Source: Spiroplasma poulsonii
GTDB taxonomy: Bacteria > Bacillota_I > Bacilli_A > Mycoplasmatales > Mycoplasmataceae
NCBI RefSeq assembly: GCF_009866525.1
Contig: NZ_CM020866.1
Span: 374,260-438,259 of the forward strand
Direction: 5' to 3'
DNA length: 64,000 bases
This document shows positions 36,224 to 47,370 of the stretch, piece after piece. A program made the position numbers and the translations under genes. The notes beneath the pieces were generated by a model. The model had not been told where the DNA came from and made no database searches. It worked only from the letters and a program-made list of their open reading frames with translations. The first letter of the stretch is position 1. Each line of letters opens with the position of its first letter.

Positions 36224-36547
36224 ATGTATGAAAAAGGAAGTAAAGTTATTGCGAAGATAAAAAACATTACACCATTTGGTGCTTTCTGTGAGTTAAAGAA
36301 CGCGGATGGATTAATTCACATTAGTGAATTTTCAGATTTCTTTGTAAGAGACATTAAAGAATTTGTTAATTTTGGTGACAATGTTGAAGTGGAAGTACTT
36401 GATTTTGATCCAGTTAAGAAACAAGTTAAATTAAGTTATAAAAACTGCCGACCTGAATTACTGAAGAAAAACAACAGTCAAATTCAAGAGACGGGAGCAG
36501 GTTTTCAACCTTTATGTGAAAAAATTACTTCGTTAACAAGTAAATAA
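36224..36547 (+). CDS. S1 RNA-binding domain protein (YugI/GSP13-like)
   Basis: A 107-residue protein. One S1 domain covers residues 4-76 (GSKVIAKIKNITPFGAFCEL, GLIHISEFSD, VKLSYKNC). Family members bind ribosomes or RNA and affect translation under stress. It is just upstream of pgi, as yugI is in Bacillus. Confidence 0.9.
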   Translation: MYEKGSKVIAKIKNITPFGAFCELKNADGLIHISEFSDFFVRDIKEFVNFGDNVEVEVLDFDPVKKQVKLSYKNCRPELLKKNNSQIQETGAGFQPLCEKITSLTSK

Positions 36548-38972: not shown

Positions 38973-39489
38973 ATTTAAAAATTAACTTAAAAAAAAGTTA
39001 ATTTATTGTAGTTTGTATTCTAGGTTATAAATTATAAACCTGATTTTTGCATTTTATAGACTTGTTTTAAAACCATTTTACGAGGTAAGTGCTTTGCGAA
39101 AAAAACATTAATTTTATTTTTACTGCCAATTAAAACAACGTCTCTTTTTGTTTGATTAATTTTTTTAAAAGCAATTTTAGTAAATTTAGTAACATTCATG
39201 CTACCAGGTGGTAGTTTTTTACTTTGATATTGGGCTCTATTTCAAAAGTCTGTTTTGATTGGACCGGGACATAACGCAATTACCTTTAATTTAGATTTTT
39301 GTTGTTGCAATTCAAAATTTATTGCACAACTAAAATTTAAAACATAACTTTTTGAGGCAAAATAAGTGGCATATAATGGTCCTGGTTGGAAGGCGGCGAT
39401 GGAAGCGCGAGGTTAATAATTCTTTTTTCGGTGTTAGTTTTATGATATTTTAAATAGAAGTATTTAGTCATAAATTGGAGACTTTTAAT

Positions 39490-40557
39490 AGACTTCTTGC
39501 ATTACTTGTTAAAAAATTGCAAATATTTGTAAAAAAGATACTAATAGAAAAATATAATTTTAATTAATTATGTTTTTTATTTAAAAATTTAATATTTTTC
39601 CACAACGAAAAATTAATTTATTATTTAAATTATTTAATTTTAAATAAATATTTTATGTTAAATATAATAATTGTAAATTATAAATTGAGGCAATTAAATT
39701 AAATCTTAAACCAAATCTTTTTCTTCGATTACGATATTTTTCTGTAATAATTTTAAATTTTTTAAGAATAGCAAAAATATTTTCAATAATAATTCTCATT
39801 TTTGAAACTAGTCTATTATATTGCTTTTGTTCTTTGTTTAAAGGGTTTTTCTTTGTTTTCTTTGTAGGTATTAGAACATTATTGTGATTTTTTTTGTATT
39901 CCTTGATAACCACTATCAACTATTAATTTGGTATTTTTTAAAATTGGGATTTTTGATTCTTTAAATAAAGCATAATCATGTTTTTTTCCGAGCGAAAAAC
40001 TTGTTGCAATAATTTTTTTGGTTTCTTGTTCGATAATTACTTGTGTTTTGATTGTGTGTTTTTTCTTTTTACCAGAATAAGATTGTTTTTGTCTTTTTTT
40101 GGGCGTTGGATTGGAGTTTCGGTAGCATCAATAATAATAGTTTTATCATTAAAATAATCATTTATTAGTGCTTTTTTACCAGCAAGTTGTTGAAAATCAG
40201 AGTTTTTAATTAAAATATCTTCAATTCACTTAATATTACGATAACAATTAGCCTCACTAATATCAAAACTTTTACCAAGATGAAAATAAGTCTGATATTC
40301 TCGTCAATATAATAAAGTCATAAATAATCTATTTTCTAATGATAATTTATTAGTTTTACCACCTTTTTTAAATTTTTCTATTTCAGCAACTTTTAAAATA
40401 TCTAACATTTTATTAAAAGTGGATTTTTTTATTCCTGTTAATCTTAACCATTCTCTATCATTAAGAGTATTAAATTTATTATTGTTCATATTTTTATGTC
40501 CTCATAAATTATATTTTATAATAATATTTTAATAAAAAAGGGTATCGCAAGAAGTCT
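39490..40557 (-). mobile_element. IS5-like element, copy 3 (in SDR gene)
   Basis: Same 11-bp ends, with AAT at 39487-39489 and 40558-40560. It is 1068 bp: it has the seven-A junction and one extra T in a run near 39891 that shifts the second transposase frame. Confidence 0.93.
39653..40489 (-). pseudogene. IS5-like transposase, copy 3
   Basis: The first frame is near standard (Phe for Leu in RLFMTLLY). The second frame is broken by an eighth T in the run before the codons for GYQGIQ, so no full protein can be made. Confidence 0.8.
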
Positions 40558-40911
40558 AATATTCAAATCAATTAAATTTAGTTCATCATCAATGTTAGTA
40601 TTCTCAAACATTCCGAAAACACTAAAACCAGCATTATTGATCATAATATCAAAATCAATTTTATTAAGTTCAGAAATTAGTTTTCTGTTGGTTGCAATTT
40701 GACTTAAATCACAATTAAATGTTTGTAAATAACTGGTTAGATTTTGTTCTTTTGCTCAGATTGTAATTGGTGTTGTATTTCTTGCCACACAAAAAACATT
40801 AATATGGTTCGTTAAGTATTGTTTTGCTAATTCAAAGCCAATTCCTTTGCTTGCTCCTGAAATAAAGACACTTTTAATGTTATTTAATTTCATTTTAGTT
40901 CCCCCTTTATT

Positions 40912-41978
40912 AGACTTCTTGCATTACTTGTTAAAAAATTGCAAATATTTGTAAAAAAGATACTAATAGAAAAATATAATTTTAATTAATTATGTTTTTT
41001 ATTTAAAAATTTAATATTTTTCCACAACGAAAAATTAATTTATTATTTAAATTATTTAATTTTAAATAAATATTTTATGTTAAATATAATAATTGTAAAT
41101 TATAAATTGAGGCAATTAAATTAAATCTTAAACCAAATCTTTTTCTTCGATTACGATATTTTTCTGTAATAATTTTAAATTTTTTAAGAATAGCAAAAAT
41201 ATTTTCAATAATAATTCTCATTTTTGAAACCAGTCTATTATATTGCTTTTGTTCTTTGTTTAAAAGGTTTTTCTTTGTTTTCTTTGTAGGTATTAGAACA
41301 TTATTGTGATTTTTTTGTATTCCTTGATAACCACTATCAACTATTAATTTGGTATTTTTTAAAATTGGGATTTTTGATTCTTTAAATAAAGCATAATCAT
41401 GTTTTTTTCCGAGCTAAAAACTTGTTGCAATAATTTTTTTGGTTTCTTGTTCGATAATTACTTGTGTTTTGATCGTGTGTTTTTTCTTTTTACCAGAATA
41501 AGATTGTTTTTGTCTTTTTTTGGGCGTTGGATTGAAGTTTCGGTAGCATCAATAATAATAGTTTTATCATTAAAATAATCATTTATTAGTGCTTTTTTAC
41601 CAGCAAGTTGTTGAAAATCAGAGTTTTTAATTAAAATATCTTCAATTCACTTAATATTACGATAACAATTAGCCTCACTAATATCAAAACTTTTACCAAG
41701 ATGAAAATAAGTCTGATATTATCGTCAATATAATAAAGTCATCAATAATCTATTTTCTAATGATAATTTATTAGTTTTACCACCTTTTTTAAATTTTTCT
41801 ATTTCAGCAACTTTTAAAATATCTAACATTTTATTAAAAGTGAATTTTTTTATTCCTGTTAATCTTAACCATTCTCTATCATTAAGAGTATTAAATTTAT
41901 TATTGTTCATATTTTTATGTCCTCATAAATTATATTTTATAATAATATTTTAATAAAAAAGGGTATCGCAAGAAGTCT
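40912..41978 (-). mobile_element. IS5-like element, copy 4
   Basis: ATT at 40909-40911 and 41979-41981 flank the standard ends. It sits between the SDR gene start and the coaD stop codon. It carries its own target repeat, so it did not move together with copy 3 as a composite unit. Confidence 0.93.
41075..41910 (-). pseudogene. IS5-like transposase, copy 4
   Basis: Two nonsense changes: TAA in place of Glu in WREYQ (near 41719) and TAG in place of Ser in TSFSLGKK (near 41415). There are also several missense changes. It is the most decayed copy here. Confidence 0.85.
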
Positions 41979-41982
41979 ATTG

Positions 41983-42405
41983 TTATTTTTTTAGTTGTTC
42001 AATTTGTTTTAAAAAGGTTGAAGAAATTTCCGTTAAGCCATAATCAGCAACAAAGAAGATTGTCTCAAGATTTTCATTTAATTTTTTATTAGCAAAAGCT
42101 AATTCCATCTCATATTTTAAATCATTATTATTTCGTAATCCTCGAATAATATAGTTAACTTTTAATTCTTTTGCAAAATCGCTGGTTAACATTTTATCAT
42201 TAATGACAACTTCAATGTGTGGATTAATTTGTTGACAAACAGCAATAACTTTTGCTGCCCGGATTTTAATGTCAGTTTGTCCTGTTTTTTCTAAGTTATT
42301 AGTAACAACAACATACAATTTTGAAAAGAGAGCACTAGCTTTTTTAATAATATTAAGATGTCCATTATGAATTGGGTCAAAACTACCCGGAAATATTGCT
42401 TTCAA
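41983..42405 (-). CDS. coaD: phosphopantetheine adenylyltransferase
   Basis: A 140-residue enzyme: FPGSFDPIHNGHLNII (nucleotidyl-transferase T/HxGH), NYIIRGLRNNNDLKYE and ISSTFLKQI. It makes dephospho-CoA. IS copy 4 is inserted 2 bases beyond its stop, so any native terminator has been separated from it. Confidence 0.95.
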   Translation of the reverse strand: MKAIFPGSFDPIHNGHLNIIKKASALFSKLYVVVTNNLEKTGQTDIKIRAAKVIAVCQQINPHIEVVINDKMLTSDFAKELKVNYIIRGLRNNNDLKYEMELAFANKKLNENLETIFFVADYGLTEISSTFLKQIEQLKK

Positions 42406-42630: not shown

Positions 42631-44298
42631 ATGGCAAAAATTAGTTTTTTCGCTCTTGGTGGCCTAGATGAGCGAGGTAAGAATTTATACTGTATCGAAG
42701 TAGAACAAGATATTTTTATTTTTGATGCAGGAACAAAAAACCCTGAACGAGGGATTTTAGGGATTGATGTAGTAATATCAAATTTTGATTATTTAAAAGA
42801 AAATCGTGCCCGTATTAAAGGGATTTTTATTACAAAACCTTCTGATGAATGTTCAGAAGCATTAACTTATATGTTAAAAGAATTAGCGGTACCAGTTTAT
42901 GGTAGTGATTTAACATGCAATGTTTTAAAATTCCATTTACAACGTTTTAAAGTACGTGGTAAAGAAGAATGTTTTAATGTTATTAATGCAAAGGATGTTC
43001 TTGATTTTGGAACATGTCAAGTTGAAGTTTTTTCAACAACAACAAATATGCCAAATAGTTTTGGATTTGCATTACACACACCAGATGGAACAATTATTTA
43101 CACGGGGGATTATATTTTTGATGCCAAAGCTGATCCAAACTTTGCAACTGATTTACAACACTTAAATCAAATTGTTGCTAAAAATAAGGTGTTATTATTT
43201 TTATCTGAAGCTTCAACAGCATCACGACGCGATTATACAGCACCAAATCATAAAATTAAAAATTATATTGAACGAGCAGTCAAAGAAGCAGAAGGGCGGA
43301 TTATTTTAGCTTGTTTTGATCAAGATTTACATAAAATTAGTGAACTTTTTGACTTAGTACGAGAAAATAATATTTCAGTTGGAATTTACGGTCAAACCTT
43401 ATTAGAATCATTAAAAGTGTTATCAGATAGTAATAAATTAAACTTTAACGGGATTAATATTAAAGGTTTACAAGAAGCGGTTAAAGAAGAAAAATCATTA
43501 ATTATTGTAACTGGTAGTGGTGAACGTTTATATAGTCGTTTAATTAAAATTGCTTCTGGGAATGATGATATTTTAGATATTAAAGAAAGCGATATGATTA
43601 TTTTAGCAACCCCACCAAATCCAGGAAGTGAATTAAACCATGCTAATGTTTTAGATGAATTAGCACGAACAGTGGCAAAAACAATTGCTTTATCGGATAA
43701 AAAAGTTTGAACAATGACAGCAAGTTATGAAGATGTTAAATTAATGAGCTCAATTATTAAACCAAAATACTTTATTCCCGTCAAAGGATTATACAAAGAC
43801 TTTGTCCAAGCAAAAACTGCGGCAATTGAAGCTGGTATTAACCCAGACCATATTTTTATTGTTGATAATGGTGATGGTGTTGAATTTGTTGATTGTGAAT
43901 ACACAAAAACAACAAATAAAGTAAAAACAGCCGATTTATATGTTGATGGAATTGGTGTTGGTGATATTGGGTCTGTTGTTTTAAATGAGCGAAAACAATT
44001 AGCAACCGATGGAGTTGTTATTATTGGTGTCTCAATTGATGGTAAAACAAAAGAATTAGTTTCCTTAATTGATACACAAATGCGAGGAGTAATTTATATT
44101 CAAGAAAATAATGATATTTTTCGGAAAATGCAAAAGGTAATTATTGACATTATTGAAAAACATTATAAAAAAGCTGTTGCTGGTGAAATGTATGATGTTA
44201 ATGAAGTTAAAAATGAAATTAGATTAACAATTAGTTCATTTGTTAAAACGGAAACAGGGAAAACACCAATTATTTTAGCAATTGTGAATGAAATTTAA
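42631..44298 (+). CDS. RNase J-family protein lacking the metal-binding motifs
   Basis: A 555-residue protein with RNase J architecture: metallo-beta-lactamase part, beta-CASP part and C-terminal domain (DIGSVVLNERKQLATDGVVI, KPIILAIVNE-like end). It begins FFALGGLDERGKNLYCIE. The HxHxDH motif (THGHEDH in RNase J1) is TKPSDEC at residues 68-74. HVSGHA is TMTASY, and the PGNE motif is PGSE. All zinc ligands in these motifs are gone, yet the frame is fully open. It is probably a non-catalytic partner of a true RNase J elsewhere, as RNase J2 partly is for J1. A TATAAT lies at 42516-42521 upstream. Confidence 0.88.
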
Positions 44299-44400: not shown

Positions 44401-47370
44401 ATGAAAAAGAAATCTTATGATGATCACCTTTTAAATGATCATAATGAGAACACTGCAATCTTAAAAGTCGAAAAAAAGCAACATCGTAATGATTCAATCG
44501 GGTGAGTAATCGGTGCGTTGTTAGTTACTTTTTTTACGATTCTTGCGGTGGGCCGAATTACTTTAATTGGGCAATTTTTAGATGATGTTTTATTTACATT
44601 TGCTTTTGGTTGATTTAAATATTTACTATATTTAGTATGCTTAGTGCTTGGAGTTACAATTTTTATCGGTGTACGGATTAAATTAAAGAGTCGGGTATGC
44701 TGAATGATTATTAGCTTTGTTATTTTATCTTGTTGATTAGTAAGTAGTGTTTTACTAATTTATCAATATGCTAATGGTCAAATTGCCTTTTTTAATAAAA
44801 CCGTTTTTTTAGATGTTATTAATAATTATTTAGCACATTGACAGGATGCTTCAATTTTTAATGCTAATCCAAGTCATCCGATTACTTTTATTGGATTTAA
44901 TGGAGCTTGAATTACCTTATATGCTGGTGGCGGAATTATTGGAAATTTCCTGGCGGTAATTTTTAGTTATACCACAATTTTTGGTTCACTAATTTTTTGT
45001 TTATTAACTTTTTTATTATGAGGAAGTTTAGTAACAACCGGAACAGTTTGAGGACTGTTTTTACCAAAAGCACAACGCCAACAACAGGGGTTGCGTGTGT
45101 TAAGATTATCAGCTAATCGCCGCCAAAAACAAAATATTTATCAATCATTTAATATTCCTGATGAGGAATTATTTTCAGCTCGCCAAGTAATGCATACAAC
45201 GGAAGCATCAGATATTACTATTCAAATGCCTTCTTATACCGCTTTACATGATCAACGGTTAATTGATGATTTAATTGCGAATGATTTTGTTGGGAAGAAA
45301 AAAGGGAAACAAAATTATGTTCGTTTTGATGAACAAGAAAAAATGCAATCGAGAATGCCTGCTGATAAATTTAATGATTATAATCCAACGCCACCGCAAC
45401 GAACACCAAAAGTTTCGCCAACACCAGACCAATATATTCAACCACGTAATCGTCAAAATAATAATTATCTTAATAAGAATATTGATGACTTACCAGTATA
45501 TAGTTCCGCTTATGGCAAAGATGTTAATATTGATGCTGCTCGTGATAAACTGAATTCCGAGACAAATATTACACCATTTGGGAAAATTAATCGTAATCTT
45601 AATCCAACCAAGGTTAAACAAACATCATTTTATGATGATCATGTTCAGGTTGATGATTTTAATGTTGCAGAACCACAAGACTATGATCAATTTGATTCAA
45701 ATGTGCTTAATGATGATGGGATTTATCATCGTCAAAGTAATCAACCAATTTTTAATGAACCTGCCCCTTATCAAACAGAATATTATCCTTCATATGAACC
45801 GCCCTTAATGAGTGGGAATAATTTTAATATGCCACCGCAACAACGCCGTGCTTCAAAGCCAAAAACAATTGAAGTTAATAAAAAACTTAGCCAAGCTGCA
45901 CCGCGTCGTAGTAGTTTTAATAATCCACATTATAAATTACCAAATTTAGGATTATTAAATCCAAAAGAAGATAATCGGCGAAATAATGAACGTAATAAAA
46001 CTTCTGCGCAAAAGAAAGCGGTTAAAATTAATGAGGTCTTTCATCAATTTAATATTGCCGCTAGTGTTCAAGGTGTTAATATTGGACCAACAATTACAAA
46101 ATTTGAAGTTCAAATGCAACCCGGTGTGAAAGTTAATAAAATTATGAATTTAGAAAATGATCTAAAATATGCTTTAGCAACCCAAAATGTTCGAATTGAA
46201 GCACCAATTCAAGGTAAGTCAGCGGTTGGAATTGAGATAGCAAATGAAATTAGTAGCAAAGTAACCTTACGTGAAATTATGGAACGAGTACCCTTAGAAA
46301 AACAAAATAAGAAGTTGTTAGTTGGAATTGGGCGTAGTGTTAATGGTGAAATTATTTTTGTTGAATTAGATAAAATGCCCCATTTACTAGTTGCCGGGTC
46401 AACGGGAAGTGGAAAATCAGTATGTATTAATACGATTTTATCATCGTTATTATTACGAACAAAACCATCAGAAGTTAAATTATTGCTAATTGATCCAAAA
46501 CAAGTTGAGTTAGCAGTTTATAATAATTTACCGCATTTATTAGCACCAGTGATTTCTGATACAAAATTTGCAAATGCTGCTTTAAAAAAAGTTATTGCAG
46601 AAATGGAACGCCGTTATAGTATGTTATCAGAACGTGGAGTTAGAAACATTGAAACATTTAATAATAAAGTTTCCCCAAAAGAACGCTTACCATACATTGT
46701 TGTTGTAATTGATGAGTTAGGAGATTTGATGATGACAGCGGGAAAAGATATTGAAGATTCAATTATGCGAATTACTCAATTGGCGCGAGCAGCAGGAATT
46801 CATATGGTAATTGCAACCCAACGTCCTTCAACTGACGTTATTACGGGGGTTATTAAAACAAATATTCCATCACGAGTTTCCTTTTCTGTTGCTTCTTCGA
46901 TTGATTCACGCACAATTTTAGATCAAGGTGGTGCTGAAAAATTAATTGGTTATGGTGATATGTTATATGCCCCAGCTGGTCAAAATATTCCAACCCGTGC
47001 GCAAGGAGCATTTATTTCCGATGACGAAATTCAACGATTAGTTGATTTTTGTCATGCGCAACAAGAACCTGATTTTGATGAAGAATTTATTAATATTGAG
47101 AATTCGAATGAAGTTGGTGGTGGGAATGAAGGTGAAGATATTGACCCAATGTATAATGAAATTAAGCGTTTTGTAATTTTAAATCAAAAAGCATCAACAT
47201 CGTTAATTCAACGTAAATTTTCAATTGGTTATAATCGGGCAAGTCGGTTAATTGATGCTTTAGAGGACAACGGAGTTATTGGGCCACAAAATGGGGCTAA
47301 ACCACGTGATGTTTATATTCAAAGCAGTGACTTAGATGATAATGATTTTAGTAGTGGTGGTCAATGATAA
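44401..47370 (+). CDS. ftsK: DNA translocase FtsK/SpoIIIE
   Basis: A 989-residue protein. Four membrane segments lie in residues 35-220, then a Gln/Asn/Pro-rich linker to about residue 510. The motor has Walker [14 protein letters not shown] near residue 665 and Walker B VVVIDELGDLM. LARAAGIHMVIATQRPSTD and a C-terminal gamma winged helix (TSLIQRKFSIGYNRASRL) follow. It pumps chromosome DNA at division. Trp TGA codons occur only in the N-terminal part. Confidence 0.95.

Follow-up and report, generated by a model that had tools for sequence, protein, structure and literature searches.

What does a full-length ribonuclease J do once the residues that bind its catalytic metals have gone? This question is raised by a gene in the window, i.e., the whole 64,000-nucleotide stretch of Spiroplasma poulsonii DNA analyzed here. 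The gene (rnjB, encoding RNase J2) lies at 42631..44298 on the + strand and encodes 555 amino acids under translation table 4. An earlier note, made from the letters alone, had described it as an intact RNase J paralogue that probably has a non-catalytic function, possibly as a partner or regulator of an active RNase J.

Identity of the window gene

The frame at 42631-44298 (+) is uninterrupted for 555 residues under table 4, and it contains one TGA codon (43708-43710, +), which is read as Trp360. The protein product matches the Pfam families RNase_J_b_CASP and RNase_J_C, with the beta-CASP domain (PF22505) at 43291..43662 (+; residues 221-344) and the C-terminal domain (PF17770) at 43978..44295 (+; residues 450-555). 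Its score against TIGR00649 is 422 bits (cut-off: 400), and its score of 392 bits against the RNase J1 profile NF047419 is below that profile's cut-off of 820 bits. Residues 5-555 align with the solved RNase J2 of S. epidermidis (E about 6e-89), and the full-length RNase J architecture of metallo-beta-lactamase (MBL), beta-CASP and C-terminal domains is present. These results agree with the earlier claims that all domains are retained over 555 residues and that the frame is kept open with TGA as Trp. A structure prediction based on an alignment of only four sequences had a mean pLDDT of 53.6 and a pTM of 0.37, which is too low for a usable model; among viral contigs, one fragment and nothing more was found as a relative for modelling.

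Based on the phylogenetic tree, the family profile and gene order, the window gene is rnjB. The tree was built from 108 RNase J sequences with the metal-motif columns omitted (quick search, LG+G4, unrooted). RNase J1 sequences from both Mycoplasmatales and Bacilli form one clade with a support of 100, and the window RNase J2 falls outside it, within a Mycoplasmatales J2 clade with a support of 99; in this unrooted quick tree, all J2 sequences together do not form a single supported branch apart from J1. Four residues shared by the window protein and the J2 of Bacilli (D312, E334, D342 and D368) separate them from J1; at the position of D312, all 35 J1 sequences have His and 19 of the 20 Bacilli J2 sequences have Asp. 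At several J1-invariant positions, that of D312 among them, the J2 of Bacilli shares its change with those Mycoplasmatales families that are closest to the window gene.

Directly downstream is a gene for an FtsK/SpoIIIE DNA translocase (44401..47370, +), whose adjacency to rnjB is conserved. The same order occurs in many Bacilli, including B. velezensis, in which the gene is annotated as rnjB, ribonuclease J2. The divergent upstream neighbor encodes a cytidylyltransferase-like (CoaD-like) protein (41983..42405, -). The earlier note thus overlooked that this is an ordinary RNase J2 (RnjB), which is present across the order and the class. The order-wide survey described below, together with the tree, rules out both an oddity confined to Spiroplasma and a recent paralogue.

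Other features of the window include a 107-aa S1-domain RNA-binding protein (36224-36547, +) that adjoins a topoisomerase-I-like gene. Sixteen further copies of this small protein occur across the chromosome with 60-66% identity, two of them with an internal TAA, and it is perhaps carried on a mobile element. A short-chain dehydrogenase gene (39032-40893, -) seems to be interrupted by an insertion sequence; the transposase of this element (HTH_Tnp_4; 40037-40489) recurs as a fragment at 41719-41910.

The metal site in the window and across the order

In catalytic RNase J and MBL nucleases, HxHxDH is complemented by three more metal ligands (His, Asp and His). In J1, the seven metal ligands are H74, H76, D78, H79, H142, D164 and H390 in Staphylococcus numbering (PMC7864078). 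By alignment, these positions correspond to K69, S71, E73, C74, T138, D160 and K385 in the window J2, so that six of the seven ligands have been replaced and D160 is the sole canonical one left. The description of the protein as being without any zinc-binding motif therefore holds for six ligands, but it overlooks D160 as well as E73, a conservative change from Asp to Glu.

The first metal motif of J1, THGHEDHIGG, aligns with TKPSDECSEA (residues 68-77; 42832..42861, +), which holds the ligand positions K69, S71, E73 and C74. The second, AVNHSIPDAFG, aligns with STTTNMPNSFG (residues 135-145; 43033..43065, +), in which the ligand His has become T138. The remaining Asp, D160 (43108..43110, +), is the equivalent of J1 D164; it lies in an STGDYKFD motif and is invariant in the J2 of three families (f1, f7 and f8). 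Further downstream, J1 HTSGHASQEE is replaced by VWTMTASYED (residues 359-368; 43705..43734, +) and PMHGDYRM by PVKGLYKD (residues 383-390; 43777..43800, +), with K385 at the position of the last ligand His. The alignment of THGHEDH with TKPSDEC and of HTSGHA with VWTMTA confirms the motifs named in the earlier note. Its reading of HVSGHA as a zinc motif was right about the loss but not about the function: SGH, which is TMT in the window J2, mainly forms the 5'-phosphate pocket, and it is the His of PMHG that serves as the seventh ligand.

The same genome encodes an RNase J1 (G000:C1:550948-552591, -; 591 aa) that scores 822 bits against NF047419 (cut-off: 820 bits). All seven ligands are intact in this protein, as are the motifs THGHEDH, HSIPD, STGD, TGSQGE, HTSGHA and PMHG, so the search for an RNase J1 elsewhere in the genome, suggested in the earlier note, had a positive outcome. 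A third RNase J copy was looked for in the same genome and was not found, leaving J1 and J2 only. Two RNase Y genes score above their family cut-off (G000:C1:1537754-1539256 and 1620686-1622086), and PNPase is also encoded.

Among 248 Mycoplasmatales genomes with a completeness of 90% or more, RNase J matches were identified in all 248, with at least two in 245; the other three (G055, G130 and G203) are drafts of 90 to 260 contigs. In the genomes examined, J1 was seen beside J2. All seven ligands are kept in 35 of the 35 J1 sequences scored, whereas J2 sequences keep three to six in Bacilli (n = 20) and zero to three in Mycoplasmatales (73 rows, close Spiroplasma relatives included). Since the metal site is absent in every related J2 sampled and all 35 scorable J1 sequences keep the full set, the loss of ligands is not a matter of chance. 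The last ligand His is absent from every one of the 73 J2 rows in the thinned tree, which also covers Bacilli; in records added later, this position is Asn in the J2 of B. velezensis and His in that of L. monocytogenes. Genes annotated merely as ribonuclease J illustrate the pattern, with TDVKNES at the HxHxDH site in the J2 of M. hyorhinis and SDIRNES in that of M. cynos.

An HxH pair was found in only three of the Mycoplasmatales J2 sequences sampled (L057, L059 and L060, from genomes G007, G056 and G058 of family f5), as HxHxD or HxHxE. A constraint that groups all J2 sequences lacking HxH in a single clade lowers the log-likelihood by 199 units (p-AU = 4e-101), which rules out such a clade and, with it, one common loss of the HxH ligands. 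If regain is disallowed, the 108-sequence tree requires six losses of HxH; unordered parsimony needs two changes, which could represent one loss and one regain, a course that is less plausible for metal ligands. One genome of the order sample (G224; 580,076 bp), which we take to be similar to M. genitalium G37, the species of MG423, encodes a J2 whose HxHxDH site reads GNAITEN. Its substitutions differ from those of the window J2, and the tree places its loss as independent.

Several observations from the survey stand apart from these counts. The three f5 sequences with an HxH pair could serve as intermediates in asking whether the ligands were lost stepwise. TIGR00649, whose founder name is MG423, is titled as an RNase J family beta-CASP ribonuclease, and the M. 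genitalium-like J2 lacks a metal site. One genome of family f7 (G239; 2.0 Mb) has two nearly equal J2 genes (L023 at G239:C1:1338882-1340531, and 629593-631242). In family f6, one RNase J1 (L133; G191:C1:473132-475302) is in two frames with the break close to HGHEDH, which is explained either by a genuine frameshift in a gene that is constant elsewhere or by an error in sequencing.

Selection, the dimer interface and the proposed role

Tree-wide omega was computed on 14 genomes of the genus. The values for J2 were close to those for J1 with each method (GY: 0.034 vs. 0.028; MGK: 0.060 vs. 0.046; NG86 median: 0.136 vs. 0.100), and J2 is under strong purifying selection close to the level of J1. 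The earlier note had proposed that selection maintains the gene, with a dN/dS near 1 as the contrary outcome; an omega of 0.03-0.06 is far below 1 and bears the proposal out.

The residues of M. tuberculosis RNase J that form the zinc site, the 5'-phosphate pocket, the RNA channel and the dimer interface are listed in PMC10119312, and we mapped them to the window J2 (P0001) by alignment using the sequence from 7wnt. Asp404 was omitted from the interface set because this position is Arg in the M. tuberculosis chain sequence. At the interface, 16 of 19 residues are identical or similar in P0001, compared with 6 of 18 for the zinc, 5'-phosphate and RNA-channel residues (Fisher p = 0.0025), a comparison in which the interface reference is the homodimer of a distant RNase J and several interface residues are conserved in RNase J generally. 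Likewise, P0001 retains 2 of 15 J1-invariant columns in the catalytic and RNA-binding set vs. 32 of 61 elsewhere (Fisher p = 0.008). The mean over Mycoplasmatales J2 is 0.37 for catalytic and RNA residues, 0.74 for the interface and 0.42 for background positions; the corresponding Bacilli J2 means are 0.63 (catalytic and RNA) and 0.70 (interface). Within the genus, the 19 interface residues are all invariant, whereas 33% of all residues vary.

The charged interface pairs keep their charges in the window J2. D342 (43654-43656, +; in the beta-CASP domain), the equivalent of Asp353 in M. tuberculosis RNase J, is paired with K389 (within 43777..43800, +), the equivalent of Arg401. D439 and D445, directly upstream of the C-terminal domain (+), are paired with K544, which is among the interface equivalents inside that domain (E453, L457, G486 and K544; within 43978..44295, +). 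The retention of the interface alongside the loss of catalytic and RNA residues indicates an active site that has been dismantled and an assembly surface that has been kept.

We therefore regard it as very likely, on sequence grounds, that J2 acts as a structural subunit without catalytic function in a complex with J1, here and throughout the Mycoplasmatales lineage. With its beta-lactamase, beta-CASP and C-terminal domains and its dimer-interface residues kept, J2 would most likely join J1 in dimers or tetramers. J1 would supply the 5'-3' exonuclease and endonuclease activity, J2 would contribute to assembly and presumably to stability, and it may dock RNase Y or other partners. The cautious reading in the earlier note, in which the protein lacks catalysis and partners or regulates an active RNase J, gains support from the intact J1, the low omega and the interface kept while catalytic residues were lost. 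Nuclease activity would presumably be absent altogether from the window J2. A broader claim, which we consider probable, is that J2 across Mycoplasmatales functions as an obligate pseudo-nuclease, having lost the metal site on several independent occasions while its interface was kept, and that J1 relies on this dead subunit. By analogy with related genera, the claim presumably extends to the minimal cell JCVI-syn3 (MMSYN1_0257).

The window J2 might instead still have some nuclease activity, based on a single-metal site formed by E73, C74 and D160 and reduced further than that of S. epidermidis J2, which functions with one Mn (PMC7864078). Of the four ligand positions in metal site 2, these residues occupy three, and they could still bind one metal. 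However, the HxHxH side used by the S. epidermidis enzyme is K69 and S71 here, the remaining ligands are replaced by T138 and K385, and the residues of the 5'-phosphate pocket and most of those in the RNA channel are also gone; moreover, a close relative (L009 in G152) has Ser in place of C74, and E73 and C74 are both Asn in other genera of the same family. We consider this reading very unlikely. It is unlikely, to a somewhat lesser degree, that the former active site has become a new binding site for a ligand, nucleotide or protein that regulates J1. R15, in the 5'-phosphate pocket, and K385 are fixed in 30 of 30 sequences across three families, and these cations in the old pocket may stand in for the metal charge or mark a new site. 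If they merely replace the charge, they would stabilize the fold; no ligand is known, and other families have fixed different residues.

A role of its own apart from J1, for instance in scaffolding RNase Y, cell-division proteins or chaperones, has some precedent, as the C-terminal domain of S. mutans J2 binds RNase Y, DnaJ and FtsZ (PMC6759994); the RNase Y genes and PNPase of the same genome and the position of rnjB beside ftsK fit such a role. We nevertheless judge an independent role quite improbable, given that the best-kept residues include the dimer-interface equivalents and that J1 accompanies J2 in the genomes examined; a scaffold would also be compatible with pairing to J1. Finally, the 4 kb upstream of rnjB contain insertion sequences and the broken dehydrogenase gene, as might be seen beside a decaying gene in which a stop codon has yet to arise. 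Decay is almost certainly not the explanation: omega is far below 1 and near the J1 value, which rules out a decaying pseudogene, nearly every genome of the order carries two RNase J copies, and the loss of ligands is ancient while the frame is still open.

Comparison with known RNase J2 systems

Previous work has established RNase J2 as a partner of J1 whose active site is dispensable. In S. aureus, a J2 active-site mutant grows like the wild type and deletion of J2 is harmful, and on this basis J2 has been proposed to be a structural component that does not need its active site (PMC3937233). In E. faecalis, J2 active-site mutants bind J1 at 81-89 nM, compared with 74 nM for the wild type, and pilus production requires J2 activity (PMC5383250). 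The J2 of S. epidermidis has been reported as a one-metal endonuclease that is mostly a monomer (PMC7864078), and that of B. subtilis as weakly active. Based on the E. faecalis pili and the S. epidermidis endonuclease, J2 is not purely structural everywhere.

For Mollicutes, a review of RNA metabolism lists J1 and J2 as two endonucleases found in all members and states that the exonuclease activity of both may apply there (PMC4014445), and another review describes RnjB as an unexpected component of the minimal cell (PMC4993169). In the searchable literature, which covers subscription journals thinly, we found no description of Mollicutes J2 as a pseudoenzyme. Judging from the residues it has lost, J2 of Mollicutes is very probably not a nuclease, and repeated loss of almost the full ligand set throughout an order seems not to have been reported in that literature. 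If J2 is non-catalytic, its retention would be explained by its role as a subunit, and models of RNA decay in minimal cells would change.

The window J2 shares its family with the rnjB of the B. velezensis and B. subtilis type, along with ftsK/spoIIIE close downstream; unlike the window J2, that type keeps HGHDE, HSIPD, GD and HVSGH. The best solved relative, S. epidermidis J2 (6K6W), also has changes at the last ligand His and at the site-2 ligands; however, it binds one Mn through five residues, nearly all of which are missing in the window J2. In S. aureus, as proposed here, J1 is the active enzyme, and S. aureus RnjB has the same family and domain layout as the window J2, whereas it carries HGHEHA, with an HxH pair that the window J2 lacks. 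The J2 of Mycoplasmatales, from which the active site has been removed more than once while the interface was kept, would therefore offer a natural test of the structural-partner hypothesis put forward for S. aureus.
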